From contig NZ_BRVP01000018.1 in the NCBI RefSeq assembly GCF_027924145.1, forward strand, positions 17,378 through 81,377: a DNA stretch of 64,000 bases. Reading direction: 5' to 3'. The notes below the pieces were generated by a model. The model was given only the letters and a program-made list of their open reading frames with translations, ran no database searches and was not told the origin of the DNA. This document shows, piece by piece, positions 7,416 to 60,728 of this stretch. Position numbers and translations under genes: made by a program. Each line of letters starts with the position of its first letter. Position 1 is the stretch's first letter. The stretch is from Neptunitalea chrysea. Lineage in GTDB: Bacteria; Bacteroidota; Bacteroidia; Flavobacteriales; Flavobacteriaceae.

Positions 7416-8324
7416 ATGAAAAGTAATAACAGTTACGATGTACTAATTATAGGAGGTAGCTATGCCGGACTTTCCGCTGCAATGTCATTAGGTAGAGCAT
7501 TAAGAAACGTTTTAGTAATAGACGGTGGTAAACCATGTAACAGGCAAACACCATACTCACATAATTTTTTAACCCATGATGGGAAAACACCTGCTGAGAT
7601 AGCAAAACTTGCGAAAACTCAAGTGAGTGCCTACCCTACCATATCATTTACTAACGCTATTGCTATTAACGGAAAAAAAACAGCAGTTGGTTTTGAAATT
7701 GAACTGGCATCGGGTAAAATTGTAAACGGACAAAAGCTTATTTTTTCTACAGGAATAAAAGATGTATTACCAGAAATAAAAGGAATACAAGAATGCTGGG
7801 GAATCTCTGTCTTACATTGCCCCTATTGTCATGGTTATGAGGTACGCAATATGCCTACCGGAATTTTAGGAGATGGAGATTATGCGTATGAGTTTGCTAG
7901 ATTTTTAACTAATTGGACACGTGAAATTACGATATATACCAATGGGAAGACCACGTTAAAAGAAGATCAACTGCACGTACTGCAACAGCACAAAATAACC
8001 ATTGAAGAGAATAAAATTGAAGCATTACTACACGAACAAGGACAATTAAAAGCCCTTCTATTTAAAGACGGAACTGAAAGCAGTTTACACGTTCTATATA
8101 CGCATGCTCCTTTTGAGCAACATTGTAGTATACCACAACAATTAGGATGCACGCTTACCGAGCAAGGATATATAGAGGTTGATGAAATGCAACGTACCAC
8201 TATAGCCAACGTTTACGCTTGCGGTGATAACTGCTCACCCAAAAGAACAGTAGCCAATGCCGTAGCATCTGGTGGAATTGCAGGAATGTTACTGAATAAG
8301 GAATTTGTTTTTGAAAACCTTTAA
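7416..8324 (+). CDS. Thioredoxin-reductase-like NAD(P)/FAD oxidoreductase
   Basis: 302 residues from the ATG at 7416; a TTG three codons earlier is possible but unnecessary. Class II pyridine nucleotide-disulfide oxidoreductase fold: FAD dinucleotide motif VLIIGGSYAGLSAAMSLGRA at the N-terminus, a redox-type HCPYCHGYE (CxxC, about residues 129-137), an NAD(P) motif around GILGDGDYAYEFA (degenerate GxGxxxxE) and the C-terminal FAD motif YACGDNC. The CPYCHGYE form is typical of small bacterial oxidoreductases in the TrxB-like group that are not always true thioredoxin reductases. The next gene follows 7 bp later, which suggests an operon. Confidence 0.85.
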   Translation: MKSNNSYDVLIIGGSYAGLSAAMSLGRALRNVLVIDGGKPCNRQTPYSHNFLTHDGKTPAEIAKLAKTQVSAYPTISFTNAIAINGKKTAVGFEIELASGKIVNGQKLIFSTGIKDVLPEIKGIQECWGISVLHCPYCHGYEVRNMPTGILGDGDYAYEFARFLTNWTREITIYTNGKTTLKEDQLHVLQQHKITIEENKIEALLHEQGQLKALLFKDGTESSLHVLYTHAPFEQHCSIPQQLGCTLTEQGYIEVDEMQRTTIANVYACGDNCSPKRTVANAVASGGIAGMLLNKEFVFENL

Positions 8325-8331
8325 AATAGAA

Positions 8332-8955
8332 ATGATGAATGATTGGTTAAAAAGATGGGAAACCCGATACAAACAACCCGAATATGCTTATGGTGTACTA
8401 CCTAATAAGTACTTGGAAAAACAACTTACGATAGTAGGTAAAGGACGTATTTTATTTGCTGCGGAAGGGGAGGGTAGAAATGCCGTGTATGCTGCAACTA
8501 AGGGCTATAAGGTTTCGTGTTTTGATATTAGTACTGAGGGAAAAAACAAGGCATTGCAACTTGCTAAAAACAACCAAGTACAAATAGAGTACAAGGTAGG
8601 AGAATTACCCGATTTGAATTTTGAGCCCGAATCTTTTGATGCCATAGTGCTTATTTATGCACATTTTCCTGTACAACTAAAATCACAATATCATAAACTA
8701 CTACACACCTATTTAAAAAAAGGAGGGATTGTCATTTTTGAAGCATTTAGCAAAGCACATGTAACATACAAAAAACAAAATCCTACTATTGGAGGACCTT
8801 CAGATGAAGAATCTTTATTCTCAATAGCGGAAATACAATCGGATTTTTTTAACTATGAAATTATGGAGCTAAAAGAAACCACTGTAGATCTTAATGAAGG
8901 AAGGTATCATAAAGGTAAAGGAAGTATTATACGCTTTTTAGGCAGAAAACTATAA
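8332..8955 (+). CDS. Class I SAM-dependent methyltransferase (TehB/TPMT-like)
   Basis: 207 residues from the ATG at 8332; the longer frame from TTG 8305 would overlap the upstream stop. It begins MNDWLKRWETRYKQPEYAYG, the usual W..RY..PEYAYG opening of small tellurite-resistance/thiopurine-type methyltransferases. Motif I is LFAAEGEGRNAVYAA (about residues 42-56), where AEGEGRN replaces the more common GxGxG. Motif II carries the acidic VSCFDIS. The substrate is unknown. It sits 7 bp behind the flavoprotein gene, so co-transcription is likely. A dispersed hairpin repeat and a terminator follow immediately. Confidence 0.83.
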   Translation: MMNDWLKRWETRYKQPEYAYGVLPNKYLEKQLTIVGKGRILFAAEGEGRNAVYAATKGYKVSCFDISTEGKNKALQLAKNNQVQIEYKVGELPDLNFEPESFDAIVLIYAHFPVQLKSQYHKLLHTYLKKGGIVIFEAFSKAHVTYKKQNPTIGGPSDEESLFSIAEIQSDFFNYEIMELKETTVDLNEGRYHKGKGSIIRFLGRKL

Positions 8956-8956
8956 A

Positions 8957-9010
8957 CTAAACTATTTCGAGATAAGTCTCGGAGTATTTAATCTCAATTA
9001 TTAAGTAAAT
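8957..9010. repeat. Dispersed two-hairpin repeat, copy 1
   Basis: 54 bp starting one base after the methyltransferase stop codon. It consists of CTAAACTATTTCGAGATAAG, a GTCTC arm, and then an ATCTCAATTATTAAGTAAAT end. Related copies are at 21783-21836, 33121-33174, 33262-33327 and 42489-42535, with a weak one near 14150. The first half can form a GAGAC/GTCTC hairpin and the second a CTCAAT/ATTGAG hairpin in the better copies. Confidence 0.7.
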
Positions 9011-9014
9011 AGAG

Positions 9015-9045
9015 AAAACAGCAGAGAGTTATCCCTGCTGTTTTT
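9015..9045. terminator. Bidirectional terminator
   Basis: AAAACAGCAG (9015-9024) pairs perfectly with CTGCTGTTTT (9035-9044) around a 10-base loop, between convergent genes. Confidence 0.85.
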
Positions 9046-9053
9046 AAGTATTA

Positions 9054-12000
9054 TTAAAACTTCACGAGTTGATGTGTTGAAGTTCCTTCTTCTGTAAACA
9101 CTTTTACAAAGTAATGTCCTTTTTGTAAAGCGTTTAAAGAGATGTTAGAAAATGCTTCGGTTACTACCAATACTTGTTGCCCTGTTACATTGTAGAGTAC
9201 TACTCTTTCAATACTAATAGATGACAATATAGCAATAGTAGTACGCGCCGGGTTAGGGTACAGCTTAATAGTACTGTCCAACGTATTCTTAGAAAGTAGT
9301 TCTTTCCCGCCTGAATTCATTTGCCTGGCTGAGGAACAACTTGCAGCACTTACACCATTTCCGGTAATTTCAAGATAATCAATATTACCCAACCCTCCCG
9401 ATGAAGTTGCCTCTAATACAATATCGTTAGTGCCAGAGGTTAAAGTAACCGTTGTAGATACAGTACTCCAGGTTGTCCAATTGGTAGTTGCCGGAAAACT
9501 AAGGCTACTAACAGCTGTAGCATTGTTAACTACAATATTTGCAGGTCGGTCTGTTCCACCACCATTGGCATAGCCAATAACCAGGGTGGCACTTCCACCT
9601 GATGCAGTAACGCTATAACTAATACTGTTTCCACTAGCATTGTCGGTATTCGCAAATCCGGTGCCGGTATAACCTGAGTTATTATTATCAACAGAGCCAT
9701 CTACACTACAAAATCCGCTAGCGTTTTCTTGTATGGTAATCGTAGTACTAGTGGTTGGTATTTCGCTAAACGTGGCAGTAATAGATTTATCAGCATCCAT
9801 TGTTATAGTAGTAGGATTACCCGTGTAACCACCACTCCATCCATCAAATTGCCAACCAGTATTAGGTGTTGCCGTGAGGGATACCGAAGTCCCTTCGTCA
9901 TACGTTCCACTAGAAGGAGATACCGATCCCTGCCCTGTAACAGCAGTAGTAAGATTATATGTTGTGGTGGTAGTACCGGCATATTCCAAACTCATATAGT
10001 AAAGGTTGGCTACATCGCCTTTAGTAAGGGTATGACTACCAGATGAAACAGTCGTAGTAATAATTCCAGATGCAGCAGCATAATTAGTTCCATCAATTTT
10101 AAAGTTACCGGTAAAAGTGTCATTAAATACAAGTGTTAATGTCCCTTCTTGAGATGCCGTAAAATTAACGCTCGTACTCGATTCAATTTTCATGCACTGC
10201 GTTAAGGTTAACCCTCCGTAATAAACAGTACCTTTAGAGGTAGACAGACTTCCGGAAATAGTATAGAAACTACTACTAGTTCCCGATTCGGTAAAATTAT
10301 GAATTTCATCTCCTCCGGTACCTCCTCCTCCATCTTGGGTAAAAACAGCAGTCACTGCTTTATCGTCATCCATGTATACCGTGGTAGTTGTGCTGGTACC
10401 GCTGGCATCTCCGCTCCAGTTACTAAAAGACCATCCACTTGCTGGGGTAGCTGTTAAAGTGGCTGTAGTACCATCATCATAGGTACCTCCTCCGCTCACC
10501 GTACCAGAGCCAGAAACCGTAACTGTTAGGGTATAATCTCCTCCCGGATTTACCACAACTCCACCATCACCTTGAACGCCCACTAAACTTGTCTGATAGT
10601 TTAATAAGGCCGATTTTAGAGCTGTATTAACATCAGAATCGGTATCATCTACACTATTATTAAATGTCCAGGTAAAGTCACCGCCATCCATACGTCCTGC
10701 ATATTGCATTACAGTAGTACGTGCATTGGCAGGTGTTTGGGCAGTATACGTGTACATTACAGAAGAGGTATTAAAATTGTTATGGCTGTTGCCTCCGTAA
10801 GAAGAAGTTACAGAACTAGGCATGTTATCAGTAGGATTGGTAACCACGTAAGCATCAAAGTCAACTGTAGAATTTGTATAGTTGGTATCTCCATATGCAA
10901 CAAATCGATGTTCACCAATCATGTAGTTATTCGCTGCTTTAATACTACCACCGTCTTCACTTGAAAAAGTGGCATTATCGGTATCATTAGCTTGCGTACT
11001 ATCATCATAAATATCAGATCCTTGCATAGAGGTAAGCATAGGAAACTTACAATTTCTAAAGTAGTTGCTTTCTACAAATAATGAAGAACCCTTTGTAGAA
11101 CCCGCCCCATATTTAGCATTCCCATCGTAGTAATTATTGTAAATATGAGCAGAGTAGAAACGTACTCTTGGATGTCTGGAATCGGAATGGTCATACCAGT
11201 TGTGGTGATAAGTAATATAAAGTCCGGTAGTAGTACCTTCGCTTAATCCAAGTAAGTTCGCTTTCCCTGAATCCCAAAAGTGATTATAAGAAAAGGTAAC
11301 ATAGGTAGATTTTTTACAATCTAATGCTCCGTCTCCTTTCGCCTGATCGGAGTCACCACCTGCATCTCCGTAAAAGAAATCACAATTATGTACCCAAATA
11401 TAATCGTTGTTTTGTTGCAGACCAATATTATCGCCTTCACCACTGTTACAATTCATTAAGCCAATGTTTCTAATTTCAATATTAGTTGCATTTTTAATAC
11501 GTATGCCCCAACCATCTGCAGTAGCATCGTCACCAATACCTTCTAAAGTAATATGGCTGCTTGCATTCTTATCGTTTTCAACCACAATATCACCGTTCGA
11601 CATGTATGAGAAATCCGTTATTTGTCCAATGAACCTAACAATGAGAGGACGATTGTCATCTCCTTTTTTAAAGCCCTCCAGAATTTCCTGCAAACCAACA
11701 CACGGATTGGAGTTAGCGCCTGTAACATTTAAGCTAATGACGTCTTTGGTATTTTCTGTAATGTATAGAATAACTGCTCCACTCATAGGAGTACCATCAA
11801 GATTATAAGCTCCCGGTATTCTACTATTATTGAATGAAAATCCGGTTCGGTCATGGGCTGTCACCGTAATAGAAGAAGTAGTTGCAGAAGTGCCTTCAGT
11901 ACCTGAGGTAACAGGTGCTACCGTAATGGTATAGGTTCCGGCCTGTAACCCAGGAATATCCACTCTATAATAAGTACCATAACTTCGTATTAGTTGGTCA

Positions 12001-16733: not shown

Positions 16734-16921
16734 ACCGGCAAAGGTCGGGATTTTTAAATCCCATTTACAAAAACAACAAACAGAAATAGCCCAAATGTTG
16801 ACAAAATCAGAGCCAAAAACATTAAAAAACCTGATCGTTCAAGTAAACTCAACATTCTTAAAATGAATTTCAAAACATCCGCTTTATTATTCTAAAAATT
16901 TGGTAAACAGCATATTGTAAA

Positions 16922-17737
16922 ATGGATTATTTACATCAAATACGCAAACCTAAATTGAGAGATAAACAACTCATTGCCATGGATCTAACATCAGAGTATA
17001 TGGGTATTGATAGCGAATGTCAACTTTTTCGAATTTTACCTGCTAGTTTATCCAGCAAAATAGAGCAGAGTGTCTACAACAGAAGAAAGCGTAAGTTATT
17101 TTCATTTAGAGAATCACTTCGCAAAGCATTGGTAAAGAGGCTGAATAAATCTGAGCATTGTTATATTGTTGACAGTATGCCTTTAGAGGTCTGTAAATTA
17201 TCAAGAAGCTCCAGAAGTAAGATATGTAAAGAACAGGACTACAGTCTGCCCGAAAAAGGATATTGTGCGAGTCAATCAAGTCATTATTATGGATATAAAC
17301 TGCATGCTGTCTGTTCTGCACAGGGTGTTATAGAAAGTATGGATATTAGTCCGGCATGTGTGCACGATATCAATTACTTAAAGGATATAAAGCACCAATT
17401 ACGTGATTGTACATTGCTTGGTGATAGAGGGTATTTGTAGGCAGAATACCAATTAAATCTATTTGAATATCATAATATTAGGCTTGAAACTCCTATGAGA
17501 ACAAACCAGCATAACTATAGGGAACAGCCGTAGGTTTTCAAGAAATCCAGAAAACGTATTGAAACATTATTTTCTCAGCTCTGTGACCAATTTATGATTC
17601 GAAGGAATTATGCTAAATCTTTTGAGGGGTTCAAAAATAGAATCTTATCCAAGATTACAGCAATGACAGTCATTCAATATATAAACATGTTTGAATTCAA
17701 CAGAAATATCAATAATCTAAAAATCAATATTGCTTAA
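16922..17737 (+). pseudogene. IS982-family transposase with two in-frame stop codons
   Basis: Reading straight through gives 272 codons to a TAA at 17735, near the usual 290-residue length. TAG codons interrupt it at 17438-17440 and 17531-17533. Family blocks are intact around them: MDLTSEYMGIDSE, YIVDSMPLEVCK, SSHYYGYKLHAVCS, LLGDRGYL, then RKRIETLFSQLCDQFMIRRN and NRILSKITAM. From family memory the stops replace Ser (GYL-S) and Tyr (QP-Y-F). The catalytic Asp/Glu framework is split, so the element is immobile unless complemented. The N-terminus may lack about 15 residues. No inverted repeats were identified. Confidence 0.88.
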
Positions 17738-17833
17738 ATGCACAACGCATAAAAGTAGTATATTATTTGATTACAACAAACAGTATTTTTTTGTTTTTAT
17801 ACGTATTTTTATGCGAAATAAATACTGATTATT

Positions 17834-19012
17834 ATGAAAAAAATATTTTATTTACTGTTATTATCGGTCATTACATTTTATAGCTGTAGCGATACTTCTC
17901 AAAATTCAGAAGTTTTTAACAATACAGCTTTGGAAATTTTCGGAAGAAGTTATGATTTTTATAATTACAATAATTTTAACTACGATCTTACCTATACCTC
18001 TTCTGATAAAAGTATTAACTCTCATATTTTAACCGTTAAGAATGAGTTTTCGTCTATAGTTCAATCCTTGAACAAAACTTATAACTTGGGATTAGATTCT
18101 ACTCAAGTTTGGGCTGTAACATTTTATGGTAAAGGTATAAATCAGAAAATCGATAAAAATATTACAGGCTTATCGGTTTTGGAATATTCTGAAGGTGGGT
18201 TCTATCAAAGAATGTATAATATAGATCAAGAAATTGTAAATCCGGTAACTGATTTTACAAGAAGCTATATTGGTCCCGTATTTATAGAAAGTTTTGGTTA
18301 TTTTGGTTATGAGTCTAACGATCAAATTAATTCGTTACTTGTTGTTTTTAGGGGGGGTGAAATAGAGGATTCTTCTGAATTTTTGAGTAAACAAAATGAG
18401 GTAGAAGAAGTCGATTATGATTTTCACATGGCAATATTGGAGCAATATCCAATAATTTTCACAGAAAAATATTATATACCTCACTATTGTTCGGTTGCCG
18501 ATTGTGATTCAAGTAATAATGGTTTTTGTGGGATATATTCTGGAGAACCTGATGTGAGTTGTAAAAAAAGTTCATATATCGATGATTGTTGTTGTGCAAA
18601 ATCTTATGCGGATAGCAATTTACCTATAGATCCTACGATATCTGCTTTTGGGGTTGATATGTATGATATTCGAGATAATGTACTATCTTTATCTTCAAGG
18701 GGGAGCGATTATAAGGATTTTTACGAGAAAATCGGATATGTTTTGAGGGTTACCCAAGAATTTGATAATAACCCGCAGCGTACACAAGATGTAATTGAAT
18801 TTTTATTGCAAAAGTCTCATTCATTTACTCAGGCATTATCAAATAATGTTGTTATTACTTCTTCTGACTCAGCGTACATATTATCGATTATTAGTTCATA
18901 TAGAAATTTAACAACAAATCATGAGTTCCAGAGGATATTGAATACTATAGAGGCTGATGTTACATATTTAACTAATAAAAAGAAATCTGAAATAATAACT
19001 TATTTTATGTAA
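17834..19012 (+). CDS. Cysteine-rich lipoprotein of unknown function
   Basis: 392 residues. Lipoprotein signal (residues 1-18, lipobox FYSC at 15-18), so outer-membrane or periplasmic anchoring is expected. The N-terminal half is Asn/Tyr-rich. A compact cysteine cluster lies around residues 215-257 (CSVADC, FCGIY, SCKK, DDCCCAKSY; nine Cys within about 40 residues), suggesting disulfides or metal binding. The C-terminal 130 residues appear helical. I do not recognise the family. The next gene overlaps its stop by one base. The pair sits between two decayed transposons, so transfer is possible. Confidence 0.6.
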   Translation: MKKIFYLLLLSVITFYSCSDTSQNSEVFNNTALEIFGRSYDFYNYNNFNYDLTYTSSDKSINSHILTVKNEFSSIVQSLNKTYNLGLDSTQVWAVTFYGKGINQKIDKNITGLSVLEYSEGGFYQRMYNIDQEIVNPVTDFTRSYIGPVFIESFGYFGYESNDQINSLLVVFRGGEIEDSSEFLSKQNEVEEVDYDFHMAILEQYPIIFTEKYYIPHYCSVADCDSSNNGFCGIYSGEPDVSCKKSSYIDDCCCAKSYADSNLPIDPTISAFGVDMYDIRDNVLSLSSRGSDYKDFYEKIGYVLRVTQEFDNNPQRTQDVIEFLLQKSHSFTQALSNNVVITSSDSAYILSIISSYRNLTTNHEFQRILNTIEADVTYLTNKKKSEIITYFM

Positions 19013-19461
19013 TGCATAAAATTATGATAAAGAAAAATCTTAAATTATTCTTCTTTTTGCTATTCATAGTATTCATACTCATTTGCTTTACTGTTAATAA
19101 GAAAGCTTTGGATTTACCAGGTATTTATGTAAGCAAGAAACCTAGTTTGGGAGAAAAAATGTCTATTATGTATTCTAAGGGATATTATAATTTTGTCTAT
19201 ACTCCTGAAGAGAATGATACGCTAACGATAGAAGAGAACGGAAAATTTAAATATTCTTCGGATTTTTGTAAAGTAGGACTTAAAGGTTATGATGGTGATT
19301 GGGAATTAAGAAGTGATAGTTTGTTTTTAGATTTTTCGTATAAAACTCATAATTCTAGAATTTTTATTAGTCAAGGAAATTTACTTTATACAATCGAAGA
19401 TTTTAGTCTGTCCGGTAGCAATGAAACAATGAAATGTATAACACTACTAGAGAAAAGGTGA
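19012..19461 (+). CDS. Small exported or membrane-anchored protein
   Basis: 149 residues. The start at 19012 overlaps the upstream stop (TAATG); a second ATG at 19024 gives MIKKNLKLFFFLLFIVFILI, a strongly hydrophobic N-terminal anchor. The remaining 110 residues contain LPGIYVSKKP and LTIEENGKFKYSS...GYDGDWELRSDSL, a pattern of small lipocalin-like or copper-resistance-like beta proteins that respond to ligand or stress. No definite family. It is co-transcribed with the Cys-rich lipoprotein and ends in a strong terminator. Confidence 0.6.
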   Translation: MHKIMIKKNLKLFFFLLFIVFILICFTVNKKALDLPGIYVSKKPSLGEKMSIMYSKGYYNFVYTPEENDTLTIEENGKFKYSSDFCKVGLKGYDGDWELRSDSLFLDFSYKTHNSRIFISQGNLLYTIEDFSLSGSNETMKCITLLEKR

Positions 19462-19481
19462 TTATAAAGATTTGATAGAAG

Positions 19482-19506
19482 GGAGAGTTTAATACTCTCC
19501 TTTTTT
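19482..19506 (+). terminator. Rho-independent terminator
   Basis: GGAGAGT (19482-19488) pairs with ACTCTCC (19494-19500) around a 5-base loop and is followed by six T residues. Confidence 0.85.
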
Positions 19507-19650
19507 ATCTAAAATCGTCAACCTATTTAGGGCGACTCAAATTTTTTATTTAATAGGTTAATTTATAATTTATGTATCAATATTAACCTAAAGATGTTGT
19601 TTTGAAAATGAGGATAATTAATTCATTTAAAATTGTTATTGTATATCCGT

Positions 19651-20117
19651 TTAATGTCCATTAGCTGTAACGCTTGCCATGACTAGCCTATCGAAGATTC
19701 TATCGCCAAAATATCTTCTGTTGAGCTTATAAACGAACTCATTGAGATATAACTGTAGGTATTTAGCCTTTATTTTGTGGTATGTTCCTGCAAAATTCCG
19801 TTTTGCATTGCCGATAGCTATATGTACCCACTTTAAAGTATCTTTGGTGGTTTGAGGGCTGGACTTTTCACTGATGTGAATCTCCACATAATCCGCAATG
19901 TCTACATAAGATGTGCTGTCATCCGTAAAAACAATAGAACCTTCATTTTCAATGGCTTTTTGCAAAGCATCGTCCACTCCTGCTGCTTTATGGTTACCAA
20001 GTACTTTAGCCTTAAAATACCTGCATTGTCGCTCTACTTTTCCGGTAGCTACATCTTCCAATACCGTACTCTCGGCCATAATCATTACATTTGATTTGGT
20101 CTTGCTTCCACGTCCTG
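19651..20117 (-). mobile_element. IS1595-family transposase fragment (C-terminal half)
   Basis: On the minus strand the frame from about 20117 to the stop at 19651 reads RGSKTKSNVMIMAESTVLED, then VFTDDSTSYVDIADYVE, KWVHIAIGNAKRNFAGTYH and LYLNEFVYKLNRRYF. These are the C-terminal blocks of ISXO2/IS1595 DDE transposases, including the second Asp (TDDSTSY) and the NEFVYKLNRR tail. The N-terminal zinc ribbon and the first catalytic Asp are missing. Homology stops at about 20113-20117, exactly where zinc-protease sequence starts on the other strand, so the fragment replaced the front of that gene. Confidence 0.85.
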
Positions 20118-20663
20118 CTTATTGCACATGAGGTAGGGCATGCGTTCGGTTTAAGACATACATTTGAATATAATCAGACGGCTATTGATGAAGATTACCA
20201 AAAAGCAATTCAAAAATTAGAAAATGATAAAAAGGAACAGCTCTCGTCTAAGAAAAAAAATGTAGATGGCAAGAAAAACAATTTGAAAGCAATATTATAT
20301 GATAGATTAGAAAAAGAATTCATAGACGCAAAAAATAATTTTAAATTCGTCAAGAATAGTAGCCTTTCGGATATTGATAGAATTATTTCAACAGATTATA
20401 AAAACAGGAAAATTGATTTTGAAAATCAAGGACGTGAAAAGGCTGTATTAACAAATGAACAGAAAGAGCTTAAGTTTAAAAATATGAGAGAGGCTCTTGA
20501 TAATAAAAGACTAAGAGAATTAGAAAAAACTTTAAACCTTGAGCAGAGTTCAACTGAAGAAAATTTTATGGATTATAAACTTGGCCAACGCAAAAGCTTT
20601 TGGTATTGGCAATGGATTGAAATGCATTGCAATAAACAACCATTAAAAGAACATATATTATGA
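20091..20663 (+). pseudogene. 5'-truncated zinc metalloprotease domain, possible C-terminal toxin
   Basis: The open frame starts at 20091 inside IS1595 sequence, so the first dozen residues are not native. From residue 11 it reads LIAHEVGHAFGLRHTFEY, a full metzincin HExGHxxGLxH motif. A charged, Lys/Glu-rich region (about 30-150, likely coiled coil) follows, then ENFMDYK (Met-turn-like NxMDY) and SFWYWQWIEMH, an ending known from Bacteroidetes proteases and toxin metallopeptidase domains. The pro-region, or the carrier part of a polymorphic toxin, is lost. The downstream lipoprotein gene overlaps by 4 bases (ATGA), which fits a toxin-immunity pair, though this is inference. Confidence 0.65.
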
Positions 20664-21472
20664 ACAATAAAATAATCGGATTAATATCAATTTGCTTAAT
20701 TCTTATTTCGTGCAATTCTGTAAAACAAATATCAAAAAATAATAGCACAAAAATTCTTTTTAAAAACATTAATGAAGATGTTGAGGAATTTGACGGATGT
20801 GAAGTTACGGTTTATAGAAGTTTGAATACAGATAGTCTACTTAATGGTAAGTATCAAATTTGTTACAAAAAAAGGAAAACAATATTCGCCAATTTTTTAG
20901 ACGGAAAATTAAACGGATTAGTTGAAACATATGAAAAGAGGGAGTTGATACATATTTGCGAATATAAAGATGGCTTAAAGAATGGCTTACAAGTGAATTA
21001 TTACAAGTCTTATTCTTCTAATGAAAAAAAAGAAACTGTACATAAAACAATTACCAGTTATAGAAATGGTTTGATAAATGGGATACAGAAATGGTATTTT
21101 GATAATGTTTTAACTATAACGCAGGCTTATTCAAACGGTATTCAAGAGGGTAAAAGCTATTTTTTTGATAATAAGGGGGACACTCTCGATATAATGACAT
21201 TTTCCCCTATTAAACCATTAGAAGGTAAATACAGAGTAGTAAACCATAAAGAGTATGATGATTCCTACCCTTTTAGAGGTAGTATTGAAGTTATCTCTAA
21301 AAATGAAACTATAAATGAACTTAGTCTTTTTCTTTCAGTTGATCCAGGAGTAGACAATTGCTGTAGGGAGAAGTTAAAAGGAGCATATTTATTTTTAACT
21401 ATCTCAGGTGATTTTGTTTTCTGTTTTAATGCTTCTTCTAGTATTCCTGACGATGTCTTTAAACTTGACTAA
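20660..21472 (+). CDS. MORN-repeat lipoprotein (YwqK-type antitoxin family)
   Basis: 270 residues. Lipoprotein signal (lipobox ILISC at residues 15-19). Four MORN_2-type repeats follow: NFLDGKLNGLVETYEK, EYKDGLKNGLQVNYYK, SYRNGLINGIQKWYF and AYSNGIQEGKSYFF (about residues 75-175). The C-terminal 90 residues form a different domain with a DNCC motif. Proteins of this type are annotated as YwqK-family antitoxins in Bacteroidetes, usually beside toxin genes. The start overlaps the protease stop, so the two were translated together. Immunity is a guess; other MORN lipoproteins are structural. Confidence 0.75.
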   Translation: MNNKIIGLISICLILISCNSVKQISKNNSTKILFKNINEDVEEFDGCEVTVYRSLNTDSLLNGKYQICYKKRKTIFANFLDGKLNGLVETYEKRELIHICEYKDGLKNGLQVNYYKSYSSNEKKETVHKTITSYRNGLINGIQKWYFDNVLTITQAYSNGIQEGKSYFFDNKGDTLDIMTFSPIKPLEGKYRVVNHKEYDDSYPFRGSIEVISKNETINELSLFLSVDPGVDNCCREKLKGAYLFLTISGDFVFCFNASSSIPDDVFKLD

Positions 21473-21510
21473 AAAAATTTATTATAAATACTCTGAAAAT
21501 GGCAGGCATT

Positions 21511-21584
21511 TAGGAAGTAGTTAAGTTGGTTAGAGCTCTTGGCTGGCAGTCAAGAGGTCGTGGGTTCGACTCCCATCTTCTCCA
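21511..21584 (+). pseudogene. Degenerate tRNA-Ala (GGC) copy
   Basis: 74 bases aligning without gaps to the intact tRNA-Ala at 22780-22853. The last 42 bases, from the anticodon loop to the discriminator base, are identical, while the first 32 differ at nine positions. Mismatches at acceptor positions 1 and 2 and in the D-stem should prevent folding and processing. The sharp change at the anticodon loop is the point where tRNA-integrating elements often recombine. Confidence 0.88.
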
Positions 21585-21588
21585 TAGT

Positions 21589-21627
21589 ATACAAAACCTC
21601 TACACCTTGCGTATGGAGGTTTTGTAT
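21589..21627 (+). terminator. Terminator behind the tRNA-Ala pseudogene
   Basis: ATACAAAACCTC (21589-21600) pairs perfectly with GAGGTTTTGTAT (21616-21627) around a 15-base loop. Confidence 0.75.
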
Positions 21628-21630
21628 TTC

Positions 21631-21712
21631 AGGTACACCATTTTTTTAAAAAACTATCTTCTTTCTCTTTTCTGTTAATTTCTAATTTTAGAGATATGGA
21701 AAATAATTGACA
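21631..21712. repeat. Shared 3' flank of the two tRNA-Ala copies
   Basis: About 82 bp beginning AGGTACACCATTTTTTTAAA and ending GGAAAATAATT are clearly homologous to 22914-22992 behind the intact tRNA. Together with the tRNA and fic similarities this shows that a whole tRNA-flank-fic module was duplicated. Confidence 0.75.
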
Positions 21713-21715
21713 ACA

Positions 21716-21788
21716 TAAAACCGACCTCAATTTGAGTATAATTCATACTATTATACTTGAATTTGCATCAGAAACCGGAGAACTAAAC
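21716..21788 (+). pseudogene. Relic of a fic gene 5' end
   Basis: The stretch matches the start of the intact fic gene (about 23365-23452): CTCAATTTGAGTATAATTCA against CTCAGTTTGAGTATGATGCA, then a gap of roughly a dozen bases, then CTTGAATTTGCATCAGAAAC against the fic equivalent. A dispersed repeat starts at 21783 and no further fic sequence follows. The fic promoter and operators are absent from this copy. Confidence 0.8.
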
Positions 21789-21836
21789 CACTTCGGGGCA
21801 AGCTCACGAAGCATTTAATCTTAATTATGGAGTAAA
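21783..21836. repeat. Dispersed two-hairpin repeat, copy 2
   Basis: CTAAACCACTTCGGGGCAAG starts the element and GGAGTAAA ends it; it fits the family described at 8957-9010. It begins at the point where the fic relic breaks off, and is followed at 21840-21883 by a single degenerate copy of the unit repeated in tandem after rodA. Confidence 0.6.
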
Positions 21837-21975
21837 AGTAGCACGTGAGTCACTTGTGTGATGCTGAAACACCTCTAGCATGCATATTTTATGATAATTC
21901 ATAATACAGAATTGTTAGATTTCACCTCTTGAAAATTAAAAATAAAATACTACTTTTATTGAAAACTAGCCAATT

Positions 21976-22770
21976 ATGAAAAACATTCTGGTTCCCGTAG
22001 GTACTTCGCCTAATGCCGTGAAAACGTTGCAATATGCTATTGATTTTGCGACCGATTTTTACTGTGATGTGTATGTTATGCAAGCCTATACTGTATTTGC
22101 AACTATGGGTATGAACTCATCTCACGAGGCGGTGTCTAAAAGTAGTACCTACCAATTAGACGAGGTGATTTCAGCAATAGATACCAAAGATGTGCAAATA
22201 AAAAAACTCACCTTTGAAGGCGGCGTTTTAGAGGCGATACAGAAAATAGACCAAGAGCTTTGGGTAGATCTTATTGTAATTGAACCTAAAAGTATCGATA
22301 TACGAGACGAGGTGTACCTTGGTAAAACCACCGGTAGCATTATTAAACAAACCAATATACCTACTTTAATTGTGCCCGAAGATTACAAACACCACCCTAT
22401 TACGTCTATACTCACTGCGTTTAAATCGGGCATTGTAAAAAACCGTATTCAGTTGGTGCCGTTAAAGGAAGTAAAAGAAAAATACGATGCCACGGTTGAA
22501 CTGCTATTGGTAAAAACGCCTGGGTATGAAGAGGAAGATTTATTGGTAGATAGCGGACTTAAAGAACTAGGAAACGGTTTAACCACAGTAGAAAGTGCTA
22601 CTACTTTTCAGGGGATACTACAACACATTCAGCAACTTAACCCCGAAATGCTTTGCGTGTTTAGAAGAAAACGCGGATTTTTTAGCAAATTATTGGAAAA
22701 AAATGTAATATTGAAGCGTGAATTTCACTGCAGTATTCCGCTGTTGGTATTACCAGTGAAAAAGTACTAA
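21976..22770 (+). CDS. Universal stress protein, two UspA domains
   Basis: 264 residues. The N-terminal domain begins MKNILVPVGTSPNAVKTLQY, the beta1-alpha1 segment of UspA proteins, and contains LIVIEP near residue 98 and GSIIKQTNIPTLIVPE (about 122-137). The second, shorter half (about 145-264) repeats the fold less clearly and ends HCSIPLLVLPVKKY. The usual G-2x-G-9x-G-S/T ATP site is only partly visible (GKTTGSIIK). Cytoplasmic stress function is presumed. It lies between the broken and intact tRNA-Ala copies, so it may have been carried along when that segment was rearranged. Confidence 0.85.
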   Translation: MKNILVPVGTSPNAVKTLQYAIDFATDFYCDVYVMQAYTVFATMGMNSSHEAVSKSSTYQLDEVISAIDTKDVQIKKLTFEGGVLEAIQKIDQELWVDLIVIEPKSIDIRDEVYLGKTTGSIIKQTNIPTLIVPEDYKHHPITSILTAFKSGIVKNRIQLVPLKEVKEKYDATVELLLVKTPGYEEEDLLVDSGLKELGNGLTTVESATTFQGILQHIQQLNPEMLCVFRRKRGFFSKLLEKNVILKREFHCSIPLLVLPVKKY

Positions 22771-22779
22771 GAACTTATT

Positions 22780-22853
22780 GGGGATGTAGCTCAGCTGGCT
22801 AGAGCGCTTGACTGGCAGTCAAGAGGTCGTGGGTTCGACTCCCATCTTCTCCA
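22780..22853 (+). tRNA. tRNA-Ala (anticodon GGC)
   Basis: 74 bases. Acceptor GGGGATG pairs with CTTCTCC apart from one U-U mismatch. D-stem GCTC/GAGC, anticodon stem CTTGA/TCAAG with loop CTGGCAG (anticodon GGC, purine after it), and T-arm GTGGG/CCCAT around TTCGACT. The CCA end is not encoded. A terminator follows. A degenerate copy lies 1.27 kb upstream. Confidence 0.95.
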
Positions 22854-22864
22854 CCTTTATTATG

Positions 22865-22897
22865 AAGCACTTACATGTTTATTGTGAGTGCTTTTTT
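22865..22897 (+). terminator. Terminator behind tRNA-Ala
   Basis: AAGCACTTACA (22865-22875) pairs with TGTGAGTGCTT (22883-22893) with one wobble, followed by a T-run. Confidence 0.8.
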
Positions 22898-23099
22898 GTT
22901 TTAGGCACAACATAGGTACACTATTTTTTAAAAAATTATCTTCTTTCTATTCTCTATTAATTTCTATTTTAGATACATGGAAAATAATTTACACTCTCCT
23001 TCAGCTTATTTTAAGCATATTATAAAATACTCATAAATGAGTAAAACTTAATCAGATTTATTTGATTAAATTTAGTGTTCATGTCTCATAATAAGAAAT

Positions 23100-23267
23100 A
23101 TGATTCATGCAAAACAGGCTTTTTTTAGTCGTTTAAGAGACGGCTTTTAATCGCACCATATTGGAATTGAGACTTTTGATGCTAAGTATGGACCTAAAAA
23201 GGTAAATGAATTAAAGCCTTTAGGAACTTTAATTAAGAAACATGAAAACAAGAATACTTCTCTGTAA
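23100..23267 (+). pseudogene. Small ORF remnant with an internal stop
   Basis: From ATG 23100 the frame reads MIHAKQAFFSRLRDGF, a TAA at 23148-23150, then continues in frame with SHHIGIETFDAKYGPKKVNE and LKPLGTLIKKHE to a second stop at 23265. Both halves look like protein and keep frame, so this is probably a small gene with a nonsense change. I cannot name the family. It separates the shared tRNA flank from the fic operators. Confidence 0.4.
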
Positions 23268-23273
23268 TAGCAA

Positions 23274-23349
23274 ATGAGCCAATTAAACCTATTAATCGGC
23301 TCATTTTTTTATTATATTTGAGCCGATTAGCTAAAATAATCGGCTCATG
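23274..23349 (+). promoter_or_regulatory. Twin palindromic operators around the fic promoter
   Basis: Operator 1: ATGAGCCAATTA (23274-23285) and TAATCGGCTCAT (23293-23304), one mismatch. Operator 2: TGAGCCGATTA (23319-23329) and TAATCGGCTCA (23337-23347), perfect. Both have 7-base spacers and their centres are 44 bp apart. A perfect -7 box TATATTTG (23313-23320) lies between and overlaps operator 2. The fic ATG (23347) begins at the last base of operator 2, so a bound protein would cover the -7 box, the start of the RNA and the start codon. Confidence 0.85.
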
Positions 23350-24447
23350 ATGTACAACTGGCAATATAAAAACTGGCCTCAGTTTGAGTATGATGCATCA
23401 GCCATAGATGCTATTGTACTTGAATTTGCAGCGGAAACCGGAGAAGTAAAGGGTATTATAGATTCCTTACCATCCGATTTTCAGCAGGAAACTGTATTGC
23501 AGTTTATGATAGATGAGGCGATAAAGACTTCTGAAATTGAGGGGGAATATTACAGCCGTAAAGATGTAATGTCGTCTATTAAGAATCGTTTGGGAATGGG
23601 TGAAACCACTCAAATTAGAGACATCAATGCCAAAGGTATTGCCGAACTTATGGTAAAAGTTCGTGAGCATTTTGCCACTCCACTAACGGAAGGATTGCTT
23701 AAAGATTGGCATGGGGTATTATTTGCGAAATCTAGAGCTATACATGGAGGTGCTTACCGAATTGGAGATGAACCCATGGTTATTGTTTCCGGCGGCTACG
23801 GTAAAGAAGTAGTGCATTATGAAGCACCACCTTCTAAAGGTATTCCAATTGAAATGGAACAATTTGTAGCTTGGTATACAAGTTTTACTACTTCTCCAAA
23901 TAATATAAAAGCAGCACTGATAAAAACTGCCATAGCGCATTTGTATTTTGAAAGTATACATCCGTTTGAAGATGGTAACGGACGTATTGGTAGAGCCATT
24001 GCTGACAAATGTTTATCGGAATCTTTAGGCCGACCTTTAGCAATTAGTCTGTCTACAACCATAGAGCAAAATAATAAAGCCTATTATGATGCTTTACAAT
24101 TGGCGCAACAGTCTTTAGAAATTACCGACTGGATTGTATACTTCTGTGAAACTATGTTAGCGGCACAGCAGTATGCGAAACAATTGATTCGATTTACACT
24201 AAGTAAAGCAAAATTTTTAGATGTTCACAGAGACCAATTGAATGAGCGCCAACTAAAAGTAGTGCTTAAAATGCTAGACAAAAGAATAGAAGGTTTTGAA
24301 GGAGGTATGACTGCCAAAAAGTACATGGCAATTACCAAAACCTCTAAAGCAACCGCCACCCGTGATTTACAAGATTTAGTAGATAAAGAAGTGTTTACTT
24401 CTATAGGAGCCGGTAGGGGTGTTAGGTATGAGTTAGTGATTGATTAG
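23347..24447 (+). CDS. Fic-family AMP transferase with DUF4172 and C-terminal winged helix
   Basis: 366 residues. An N-terminal DUF4172-like domain (about 1-90, opening MMYNWQYKNWPQFEYD) is followed by the Fic core with HPFEDGNGRIGR at 205-216, the complete HPFxxGN motif that transfers AMP from ATP to a hydroxyl on a target protein. TSEIEG at 61-66 fits the inhibitory (S/T)xxxE(G/N) helix motif, so the enzyme is probably autoinhibited from its N-terminal side. The C-terminus (about 295-366) is a winged helix (TAKKYMAITKTSKATATRDL) that could bind the two palindromes at its own promoter. Two adjacent ATGs (23347, 23350) are possible. It acts in the cytoplasm; target unknown. Confidence 0.9.
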   Translation: MMYNWQYKNWPQFEYDASAIDAIVLEFAAETGEVKGIIDSLPSDFQQETVLQFMIDEAIKTSEIEGEYYSRKDVMSSIKNRLGMGETTQIRDINAKGIAELMVKVREHFATPLTEGLLKDWHGVLFAKSRAIHGGAYRIGDEPMVIVSGGYGKEVVHYEAPPSKGIPIEMEQFVAWYTSFTTSPNNIKAALIKTAIAHLYFESIHPFEDGNGRIGRAIADKCLSESLGRPLAISLSTTIEQNNKAYYDALQLAQQSLEITDWIVYFCETMLAAQQYAKQLIRFTLSKAKFLDVHRDQLNERQLKVVLKMLDKRIEGFEGGMTAKKYMAITKTSKATATRDLQDLVDKEVFTSIGAGRGVRYELVID

Positions 24448-24519
24448 GCAGCAATTACAGTTGTTATAGCTCTTCTTTTAATAGTCAACTTTAAAATAGT
24501 ACTACTGCTAAAAACAACA

Positions 24520-24539
24520 AAGTCGCTCTAAAGCGACTT
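24520..24539. terminator. Weak hairpin after fic
   Basis: AAGTCGCT and AGCGACTT pair around CTAA. No T-run follows, so termination is uncertain. Confidence 0.4.
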
Positions 24540-24592
24540 GTATAATTGATCTTTTGCCGTTATTCAGGTGTTGTGCAACGGTTACCATTGTT

Positions 24593-26020
24593 CTACGCAG
24601 TTTTTTCTTTTTTAATTTTATACTTTACTTTATTTATCAATTCTTGATACTCTGCTAAACTCATTTTATTTTGGATTACATCATAAGCGTTTAATTTCCC
24701 TTTAAGTTCATTAATAATAGAAGTCTTTTTTGTGATTAGGAATTTACCTTTTAAGAATCTACCAATTTCTCTCAAATTATCATTTTCTTCCTGATGGAAA
24801 TTTCCTTTATCATCCATATATATTCGTTCTTCGTTTTCGTAAACTCTTTTATTAAATAACGGTTCAATTTCATCACACTCTAAGATAAAGTAACTAAAAT
24901 CTAAATCTCCAATTGATTCGAAATAAAGCGCTTTAGGTTTTAAGAAAATGTCATTTTCAATGAATAAATAATCTTGTTTAATCTCGATTTTATTAAAATC
25001 ATTGCCACCACTTTTTGGGTAAAAGCAATGATTTAAATTGTCATATGATTCAAATATTATTTTTAAAACATTATAAATCTCCTTCAAGTCATTCCATTGA
25101 CAACACAATGGAATTGAAACAGGAAAAATTCTAGTCAGTGCATCTTCCCACTCATATGGATTCCTCTCGTAATAATCATCATTGCTAGAATGCCAATATC
25201 TGAATTTTTCATTGAACTCTGAAGCTGTAGGTCTTTTTTGAGGGTCGTTATCTGTGGATTGTTCAAGAAGTCTATTTAATAACACAATTGAAAAATAATA
25301 CCAATCTCCGATGTAATGCATTTTATTGATATTCACTTCTACAAAATTATCGATTGATATATTGCTATTTGAAATATACTGACCATCAAAGCCCAACCAT
25401 TGTTCAGTTAAAATCATCCAAACAGTTTTTGCAAAAGAGTATATATCAGCTCTTTTAAATTCTGCGACAGACGAAATCCTTTTCATTTCTGGTGCTATTG
25501 TCCACCTTGGCCCGATAGATTCGTTTAATGCAGAAACCTTTTTTTCTTGGGAAAATTAGCTAATCTAAAATCTGAAAATACAGGTTTTCCGTCTATAATT
25601 AAAATATTATCAGGCTTTATGTCTCTATGGGTTATATCTTGTGAATGTAGATATTCAATAGCATCACAAAGTTCAAATATGATTTCAAATACTTCTTCTA
25701 TTGTAGCAGTTTTGATAAATTCTTTGAAAGGGATGCCAATTGGCATTATATAGTATGGATAATCGTCTTTATTTAATTCCGTTGGAAAGTGATGTTCAAT
25801 AATTTCAATTATCCCTTTTTTCTTTTTTAAACTGTTTAAAACTTCTATTTCACTTTTAAATCTTTCGTATTTTTTTTGATTTGATATTTTTTTAAACTTT
25901 TTTAGCAAAAAAATTACCTTCAGCATCTTCTACTTTGTAAACTATACCGTTACCACCTTTTCCAAGTTTTTTTTTTGATTTGATATTTCTTTTTTTCCAA
26001 GTTTTGTGTGGTTTTTCAAA
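24593..26020 (-). pseudogene. Serine/threonine protein kinase broken by two frameshifts
   Basis: Three reading-frame pieces on the minus strand make one kinase. Piece 1 (about 26020-25895): KLGKGGNGIVYKVEDAEG, the glycine-rich loop, and FFAKKV with the ATP-binding Lys. Piece 2 (to about 25540): EVLNSL, HRDIKPDNILI catalytic loop, then SDFRLANF where DFG should stand. Piece 3 (to 24593): IGPRWTIAPEM with the APE motif, RADIYSFAKTVWMIL and a 200-residue C-terminal region. Each frame change fits loss of one base in or beside a homopolymer (near 25895 and 25540). The DFG glycine is Arg, which should disable Mg binding even without the frameshifts. No start ATG was found. Confidence 0.85.
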
Positions 26021-26149: not shown

Positions 26150-26783
26150 GTGTGTACCCAGCATGGGCATCTTTATCCTATCAAATATAGGATATTCATC
26201 TAGAGGATGCAAGTCCCTTATGGGCAGGGGTAACGCCTTGAACCATTAGCAAGTCGCAAGGTCGCTAGTTGTGAAGCTGGGACTGAAGGAAGCGAGCCTG
26301 CAAATTTCGGTACTGAGGAACACGAACCATATACCGAGGCTATGAGGTCGGATGAGTAGGCACATAACTGCGAAGTCCAAAATATCACTTTTAGATAAGT
26401 ACCGAAGTAGTAGATATGGCAGGAATTGAAAGAAAGAAGATGTTCTTACCTGGGGAGGTCTCTATAGCTACGGGTTGGCATAGTGGAGAAGTCAGCAGCG
26501 GTCATAGTACTCGCAGTAAACGAGGTGTAATATTTTACACAGGTCTCACAAACGAGGAAGGACCGAACAATAACCTCTTTGAAATGTACTTAGGAGCTGA
26601 ACTTGTGAATGGCTGTCCGAATCCCAATTAAGTTTGGTAGCCTAAGAATAAACTAGAAGATAGTTCAATTTGGTGTAAAGAGCGAGTTGAAAGATGGTTA
26701 TTGAACCGCCGTATACGCGACCCTTACGTACGGTGGTGTGAGAGGCGCACCGTGGACTCATCGTTCACGGCCGTCTACTCGAT
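26150..26783 (+). mobile_element. Group II intron lacking its maturase ORF
   Basis: The 5' end GTGTG (26150-26154) and the following GCATGGGCATC region, the GCAAGTCGCAAGGTCGCTAG and AAGGAAGCGAGCC blocks of domain I, the GAAGTCAGCAGCGGTCATAG block before domain IV, the domain V hairpin (CCGCCGTA 26706-26713 with TACGGTGG 26729-26736) and the domain VI end GGCCGTCTACTCGAT (to 26783) are all standard for bacterial group II introns. A full element carries a reverse transcriptase of about 420-600 residues in domain IV; here only some tens of bases remain. A frame at 26416-26631 is intron structure rather than a protein gene. It lies antisense to the HEPN remnant. Confidence 0.88.
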
Positions 26784-60213: not shown

Positions 60214-60728
60214 GTGAGCTACTTGTGAGATGCTGAAATAAATTCAGCATGACGAGCAAAACCCGCACCGTCACCCTGAAATTTGTTCAGGGTCTCATCT
60301 GAGTAAGCCAAACAGCACGTGAGCTACTTCTGAGATGCTGAAATAAATTCAGCATGACGAGCAAAACCTGTACCGTCACCCTGAAATCTGTTCAGGGTCT
60401 CATCTGAGTGAGCCAAACAGCACGTGAGCTACTTCTGAAATGCTGAAATAAATTCAGCATGACGAGCTAAACCCGTACCGTCACACTGAATTTAGTTCAG
60501 GGTCTCATCTGAGTAAGCCAAACAGCACGTGAGCTACTTGTGAGATGCTGAAATAAATTCAGCATGACGAGCTAAACCCGTACCGTCACACTGAAATCTG
60601 TTCAGGGTCTCATCTGAGTAAGCCAAACAGCACGTGAGCTACTTGTGAGATGCTGAAATAAATTCAGCATGACGAGTAAAACCCGTACCGTCACCCTGAA
60701 ATCTGTTCAGGGTCTCATCTGAGTGAGC
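60214..60728. repeat. Five tandem copies of a 105-bp double-hairpin unit
   Basis: Units start at 60214, 60319, 60424, 60529 and 60634, exactly 105 bp apart; the last is cut at about 60728. Each opens GTGAGCTACTT and holds two hairpins: ATGCTGAA-ATAAA-TTCAGCAT and CCCTGAA-n5-TTCAGGG. Copies differ at a few bases, for instance CACCCTGAA against CACACTGAA in units 3 and 4. No ORF and no unique spacers, so it is not a CRISPR array. A single degenerate unit lies at 21840-21883. Confidence 0.92.

Follow-up and report, generated by a model that had tools for sequence, protein, structure and literature searches.

A Fic protein gene (fic) in a 64,000-nucleotide stretch of Neptunitalea chrysea DNA (the window; genome G000, contig C18, positions 17378-81377, from an assembly of 3.78 Mb in 88 contigs with 34.7% G+C) starts 492 bp behind a tRNA-Ala(GGC) gene, i.e., on the 3' side of the tRNA, and a decayed copy of the same arrangement lies upstream. 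We consider it probable that a small element moved by an integrase once inserted at the 3' end of tRNA-Ala(GGC), that this fic is its surviving cargo and that the decayed copy is the truncated half of a tandem duplication; the gene is predicted to repress itself. The integrase and the right end of the element would be missing from the window, and fic would form a self-contained unit, in which a promoter between two palindromes 44 bp apart is followed by a Fic enzyme with a winged-helix-like tail. An earlier note on this DNA had described the paired tRNA-Ala/fic module, one copy intact and one decayed, and had proposed a small mobile module built around Fic at the tRNA. The pairing was confirmed, and the proposal was right in kind: fic recurs in the family as cargo behind tRNA 3' ends, as seen from a relative with an integrase at the same tRNA-Ala(GGC) (G149), two further relatives (G184 and G276), other tRNAs and empty sites near one carrier.

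The tRNA-Ala(GGC) locus in related genomes

In G149, which belongs to another genus, the corresponding locus (L204) runs from a MATE gene and a universal stress protein (USP) gene through tRNA-Ala (7651-7725), an integrase gene (7976-9193) and a lipoprotein gene to fic (10028-11128). The integrase has the Arm-DNA-bind_5, Phage_int_SAM_5 and Phage_integrase domains of a tyrosine integrase, and the G149 Fic is 94% identical to that of the window. Behind fic, CTTCTCCAC (11325-11333) repeats 9 bp of the tRNA end and is followed by a terminator. The DNA that G000 and G149 share at fic (23272 to 24469 in the window, 91.7% identity over 1198 bp) extends from the first fic palindrome to shortly after the stop codon, whereas the other shared stretches are 70-81% identical (USP-tRNA 71.2%, MATE 69.8%, enoyl-CoA hydratase 70.4%, two more 74.4% and 81.2%). 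The gene therefore appears to have moved between these lineages after their split.

The USP gene (21976-22770 in the window, with a Pfam Usp match) is the native neighbor of tRNA-Ala(GGC): the two were adjacent in 28 of the 30 best loci (a USP match was found in 241 of 397 family genomes). In a search of 30 USP loci for fic, only the window's own was found. The earlier note had called for a comparison of tRNA-Ala(GGC) loci with and without fic and for an integrase nearby. Most loci turned out to be without fic, and the integrase, which similarity did not reveal in the window, was present in the orthologous locus of G149. G184 has the order USP-tRNA-Ala(GGC)-fic with a Fic 45% identical to ours, and in G276 fic ends a primase- and mobilization-like gene set (as read by eye) 5 kb behind a tRNA-Ala(GGC) that lies beside a MATE gene. 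The same kind of left end occurs at the same tRNA in G410, together with a truncated integrase and an McrBC-like pair (both below curated cut-offs); its 25-base right end, TTTTGGATAGTCCCATCTTCTCCAC, is common to G001, the one other genome of the window's genus that was examined. G001 carries a fic operator remnant and post-fic sequence 93% identical to that of G149, without fic. At this locus G001 thus lacks fic yet bears its remnants, and clean empty sites were seen only at another tRNA, the tRNA-Arg occupied in G267 (see below).

fic behind other tRNA genes

Two sets of fic loci were compared, which may share species and were hence not pooled. The family set comprises 36 copies (fic at E up to 1e-60) from 34 of 299 family genomes, with loci enlarged to 10-20 kb; the named set comprises 80 loci, the best 80 of at least 546 relatives. 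A tRNA was present in 11 of the 36 family loci and fic lay on its 3' side in all 11 (without the window, 10 of 10; one-sided sign test, 0.001). Besides tRNA-Ala(GGC), fic recurs behind tRNA-Arg, -Asp, -Pro and -Met. In four family loci it lies between the tRNA and a repeat of the tRNA 3' end, matching at 59/59 bases in G140 (tRNA-Asp), 146/149 in G267 (tRNA-Arg), 68/76 in G176 (tRNA-Pro) and 54/57 in G103 (tRNA-Met); all four repeats run on past the tRNA. The named loci contain a tRNA in 5 of 80 cases, with fic on the 3' side in 4, and in L106 (tRNA-Leu, 35 exact bases) and L061 (tRNA-Asn, 16) fic again lies between the tRNA and an end repeat. Linkage to a tRNA as a general rule was rejected, with a tRNA starting within 1.5 kb of the fic start in only 1 of the 80 named loci.

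Of the 80 named loci, 5 have an integrase match no more than 2 kb away from fic, and no match lies at a greater distance (binomial p 0.007); in the family set, 10 of the 36 loci have one somewhere in the examined stretch. Where family loci have both a tRNA and an integrase (G149, G176, G134 and G232), a gap of 196-251 bp separates the integrase from the 3' end of the tRNA. The element of G267 measures 1.6 kb, and fic is the sole frame of at least 90 aa wholly inside it. When the element ends of G184, G267, G140, G149, G176 and the window were compared, only those of G149 and G176 exceeded shuffles apart from the operators (37 vs 27), and therefore no shared left end ties the window to those elements. 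Beside fic, the tRNA-Asp element of G140 holds a 636-aa protein without a Pfam match (L245, 4349-6259). The fic copies of L261 (G003) and L274 (G247) contain one in-frame stop each.

Presence and absence were followed at the tRNA-Arg of G267 in nine genomes of its genus. G433 likewise carries fic at this tRNA-Arg, with 88% identity at the protein level. In G429 the downstream flank lies directly behind the tRNA, i.e., the site is empty, and the same holds for G418 except for one copy of the repeated tail. Other islands occupy the site in G432 and G431, and fic was not found at the loci of G429, G418, G432, G431, G428, G002 and G430. At the tRNA-Asp, G338 gave no DNA match to the fic of its genus mate G140. 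In the G432 locus (L312), four repeats of the final 16 bases of tRNA-Arg follow the tRNA at a spacing of 174 bp.

These loci resemble the genomic islands, integrated at tRNA genes and moved by tyrosine integrases, that are the subject of Islander (PMC4383910). The likeness lies in the position of fic at tRNA 3' ends, the integrase beside the tRNA in G149, G176, G134 and G232, the second copy of the tRNA 3' end beyond fic in G140, G267, G176, G103, L106 and L061, and the empty sites in relatives of G267. The fic elements differ from them in being very small (1.6-3.6 kb in G267, G140 and G149) and built around fic, and in that G267 and G140 have no integrase match and the window copy neither an integrase nor a right end.

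Two copies of tRNA-Ala(GGC) in the window

ARAGORN identified two tRNA-Ala(GGC) genes in the window, both on the + strand like all other features of the locus discussed here. An ungapped comparison of copy A (21511-21584) with copy B (22780-22853) bore out the earlier note in that their nine differences (positions 1, 2, 6, 11, 13, 16, 20, 27 and 32) all fall in the first 32 bases and the last 42 are identical. Nine random differences would all fall there with p = 2.5e-4, a value uncorrected for the choice of breakpoint. Copy B is intact. Copy A, decayed in its 5' half, is a weak tRNA: its first two acceptor pairs are broken in the sequence and its Rfam score of 43.4 bits, vs 65.4 for copy B, is the second lowest of the 52 tRNA matches of the genome.

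The earlier note had also described a common order of tRNA, terminator, flank and fic, of which the flank and the fic piece are indeed homologous, but the two terminators are not. The flanks (21631-21712 vs 22914-22993) are 88% identical over 82 bp. The terminator hairpin of copy B (22867-22897) is unrelated to that of copy A (21593-21623), which is akin to the one behind the single tRNA-Ala(GGC) of G001 (21513-21623 vs L143:9686-9795, 86%). Copy B also carries about 350 bp between flank and fic (22994-23346) that have no counterpart in A. That the likeness of copy A to the fic 5' end could be chance is refuted by an alignment of 21705-21787 with 23356-23450, whose local score of 75 compares with a maximum of 28 in 300 shuffles, and by a search of the own genome, in which the piece was found at E = 3e-10. 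The possibility that the flank is the start of a GIY-YIG gene was dropped; an own-genome search with PF01541 gave three matches, all on other contigs.

The fic 5' fragment of A (21705-21788) is internally gapped and stops at 21788, where a dispersed repeat with many genome copies begins, and it may never have been a whole gene. Its end adjoins a stretch that leads into USP in G001. In that genome the order is MATE-USP-tRNA-Ala, with short repeats between MATE and USP, and no second tRNA-Ala was found in the 19 kb examined. Compared with G001, the window has an insert of about 5 kb between MATE and USP (roughly 16760-21920), in which tRNA A and the fic piece are accompanied by fragments of transposases and by frames that have no Pfam match. 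Probably, copy A is what remains, in truncated form, of one half of a local tandem duplication, which would have started upstream of USP and reached into fic; if the first USP copy was then lost, tRNA A and the fic piece would have ended up ahead of the remaining one. tRNA A would then have decayed, since copy B stays functional, and a later event at B would have changed its terminator.

Alternative explanations

Several observations weigh against the reading of fic as the cargo of a tRNA-targeted element followed by a tandem duplication. Within the window there is no integrase similarity and no displaced tRNA end behind fic, and no fic was found within about 1.5 kb of tRNA-Ala(GGC) in the loci of 29 relatives. 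The 9-bp repeat of G149 is not above shuffles, and its assignment depends on its place and on the terminator behind it. In the wider comparison, the examined stretch holds no tRNA in 25 of the 36 family loci and 75 of the 80 named loci; six of the ten other tRNA-bearing family loci (G149, G184, G232, G082, G276 and G134) have no repeat clearly above shuffles; L097, one of the five tRNA-bearing named loci, has fic on the 5' side; and G433 lacks the right repeat of G267, with no tyrosine-integrase match found near fic in either genome or in the islands of G431 and G432. As to copy A, it sits upstream of USP; no similarity beyond chance was found upstream of A and B, hence no trace of a lost USP copy; and the 42 identical bases exceed the tRNA-end repeats of G149, G001 and G410, which measure 9-15 bp. 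Finally, self-repression and defense are argued by analogy.

The identical tRNA 3' halves could also reflect ordinary gene conversion between the two copies, in which case they would be uninformative on integration. With two homologous copies 1.27 kb apart and a tract longer than the tRNA-end repeats just mentioned, this has a chance not far short of even, although the tract stops precisely where the tRNA does and is followed by unrelated terminators; it is compatible with our preferred explanation.

The earlier note had favored a fic element that arrived twice at this tRNA, the older copy losing its fic. In such a scenario, each arrival, one at tRNA A and one at tRNA B, would have brought a fresh tRNA 3' half, which would suit the break of identity at the anticodon loop and the 42 identical bases in spite of a flank behind them of only 88% identity; fic elements do land at tRNA-Ala(GGC) in other genera. 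The scenario is nevertheless not supported, because copy A lies upstream of the native USP, the wrong side for stacked integration, which would add copies behind the native tRNA; because the window has neither an integrase nor a displaced tRNA end behind fic; and because the tRNA-end repeat in the three relatives is much shorter than 42 bases. Moreover, A has no integrase or right end of its own, and its still recognizable 5' half implies that it was a whole tRNA gene. We regard two arrivals as rather unlikely, and copy A is better read as a truncated tandem duplication than as the less likely older arrival that lost its fic.

A plain segmental duplication of a vertically inherited USP-tRNA-fic block, with no mobile element in the history of this genome, would suit the lack of an integrase and right end in the window, the native USP-tRNA-Ala pair and the fic remnants that G001 keeps in the same neighborhood, but it is improbable given the excess identity of fic between G000 and G149 over their other stretches, the integrase and short tRNA-end repeat of G149 at the same site and the presence of fic in so few of the family genomes.

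A predicted double operator upstream of fic

Two palindromes 44 bp apart cover the fic promoter and start codon. The first (23275-23303, half-sites at 23275 and 23293) and the second (23319-23347, extending to the start codon) were located by a motif scan. Between them lies TATATTTG (23313-23320), which we take to be a -7-like promoter element (consensus TAnnTTTG).

A first scan of the named set with the class 1 core, in which 2 of the 80 loci were dropped for a short upstream region, gave two palindromes in 35 of 78 scored loci, one in 4 and none in 39; the negative loci mostly use another core. No double match to the class 1 motif occurred in 18768 random windows. With both classes and a fixed geometry, 38 of the 80 loci are class 1 (TGAGCCGAwTA), 39 class 2 (TGAGyTATArA) and 3 unclassified (L072, which has no upstream; L079, with two palindromes of other spacing in the class 1 scan; and L105). 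At most 12 mismatches in 44 positions were counted in 76 of the 80 loci, as against none of 8000 control windows, one of which has 14. The family set divides into 13 class 1 and 13 class 2 loci, with 9 of 35 in neither. Record titles of the named loci include Bacteroidetes, Nitrospirota, Verrucomicrobia and Proteobacteria, and many are metagenome bins.

The two classes also differ at residues of the tail; residue 325, for example, is Lys in 38/38 class 1 rows (the window included; L053 is too short) and Asn in 37/39 class 2 rows. Residues far from the tail (3, 24, 55, 75, 106 and 192) separate the classes as sharply, so that shared descent may explain the match between tail and operator.

The Fic protein and known systems

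The intact fic of the window (23347-24447) encodes a protein of 366 aa. Its DUF4172 and Fic domains are above the Pfam cut-off, and a C-terminal DIP2311-like_C match, corresponding to the winged-helix-like tail, reaches 25.4 bits, below the cut-off of 27. An alignment with PDB 8cil covers residues 4-363. The protein has the catalytic motif of class II Fic, HxFx(D/E)(A/G)N(G/K)R, as HPFEDGNGRIGR, and the inhibitory motif (S/T)xxxE(G/N) as TSEIEG in the DUF4172 region; both definitions (catalytic and N-terminal inhibitory) are from passages of PMC10628234. The PADLOC SoFic profile matched at 1.1e-44, and the curated SoFic equivalog (NF046030, NCBIfam) was not passed, with 62.1 bits vs a cut-off of 550. 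Behind fic, 24440-24720 contains only 26-34-aa frames and no 47-aa frame.

Three known systems help to interpret this architecture, all cited here from parts of the respective papers. CccR of Yersinia pseudotuberculosis is a Fic toxin and autorepressor whose self-repression through inverted repeats was shown experimentally (PMC9755527). It shares with the window gene a Fic domain followed by a C-terminal DNA-binding domain, which in the window is predicted, and inverted repeats over its own promoter, which the window fic also has; it differs in that CccR protects AGATAATCAT-N26-ATGATAATCT, whereas the window has four half-sites of another sequence, arranged as two palindromes. By analogy with CccR, the window Fic would bind its palindromes and repress its own gene; the comparison predicts operator binding and does not imply secretion. 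CbFic2 has the same domain order (DUF4172-Fic-HTH) and motif kinds, and sets a precedent for a DNA-binding Fic enzyme that has a tail of this kind, the removal of which did not abolish binding (PMC10628234). It was studied as an effector acting on histones, with non-specific DNA, and an operator is not mentioned in the passages of that paper used here. For Sofic, protection against phages through AMPylation is reported (PMC12249575). It, too, consists of one Fic protein, toxic in abortive infection according to the description, and our protein matched its PADLOC profile; the difference is that the window Fic stays below the NCBIfam SoFic equivalog cut-off. Once released, the window Fic would AMPylate a target in the cell and arrest growth, plausibly in defense against phages, and a growth-stopping, phage-linked role is plausible by analogy.

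The roles known for Fic enzymes that have a DNA-binding tail are those of toxin, effector and phage-defense protein, but the spread and silencing of these enzymes are little described. Library searches that left out most subscription journals gave no paper with a title or abstract start on Fic as recurrent cargo of tRNA elements, or on the double operator seen here. As a tentative and perhaps doubtful generalization, a Fic cassette with its own repressor tail may be spreading across several phyla behind tRNA genes, on tiny integrase elements or, as in G267, as a 1.6-kb fic-only unit that would need outside recombination, with an operator code split into CCGA and TATA core classes matched by tail changes such as Lys/Asn 325. 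If so, the family would be a portable gene able to silence itself, with a repeated habit of settling behind tRNAs, and the two operator classes would be a testable code between the winged-helix tail and DNA. tRNA-Ala(GGC) behind USP would be a site to look for defense cargo, holding Fic in G000, G149 and G184 and the McrBC-like pair in G410.

Neighboring features

Between the tRNA flank and fic sits a piece of a CRISPR leader with one lone degenerate repeat (23112-23173, repeat at 23144-23173). A role for it as a fic-silencing guide (CreTA-like) was discarded, the 37 bases behind the repeat matching 23001-23500 at 19/37 at best, no better than elsewhere. None of the spacers of the arrays on contigs C24 and C40 matched the window within 8 mismatches, and the piece is kept as debris. 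The C24 array is long (L141, 11841-14070), with no cas-like gene seen by eye in the surrounding 20 kb. C40 has its own array (L142, 511-1620) and a type I-B-like cas set (Cas1b, Cas3, Cas6 and Cas7-like), adjoining an apparent tRNA 3' fragment with a terminator (301-337) and an integrase-like frame (11022-11600, E 4.7e-17), so that this cas island may be a tRNA-integrated island too.

The dispersed REP-like repeat that follows the fic piece of copy A (21789-21850) has dozens of genome matches, and a related 105-bp unit is repeated in tandem about five times at 60214-60728. Behind the intact fic, two opposite-strand frames lie within 24593-25926, the one at 25525-25926 matching protein kinases and looking like a piece of a broken kinase gene. 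A Group II intron RNA follows at 26265-26444 (Rfam RF02001, 110.8 bits), and within the region 26265-26770 the sequence that starts at 26698 is found again in G001, next to the fic remnant there (L143, 13634-13729).

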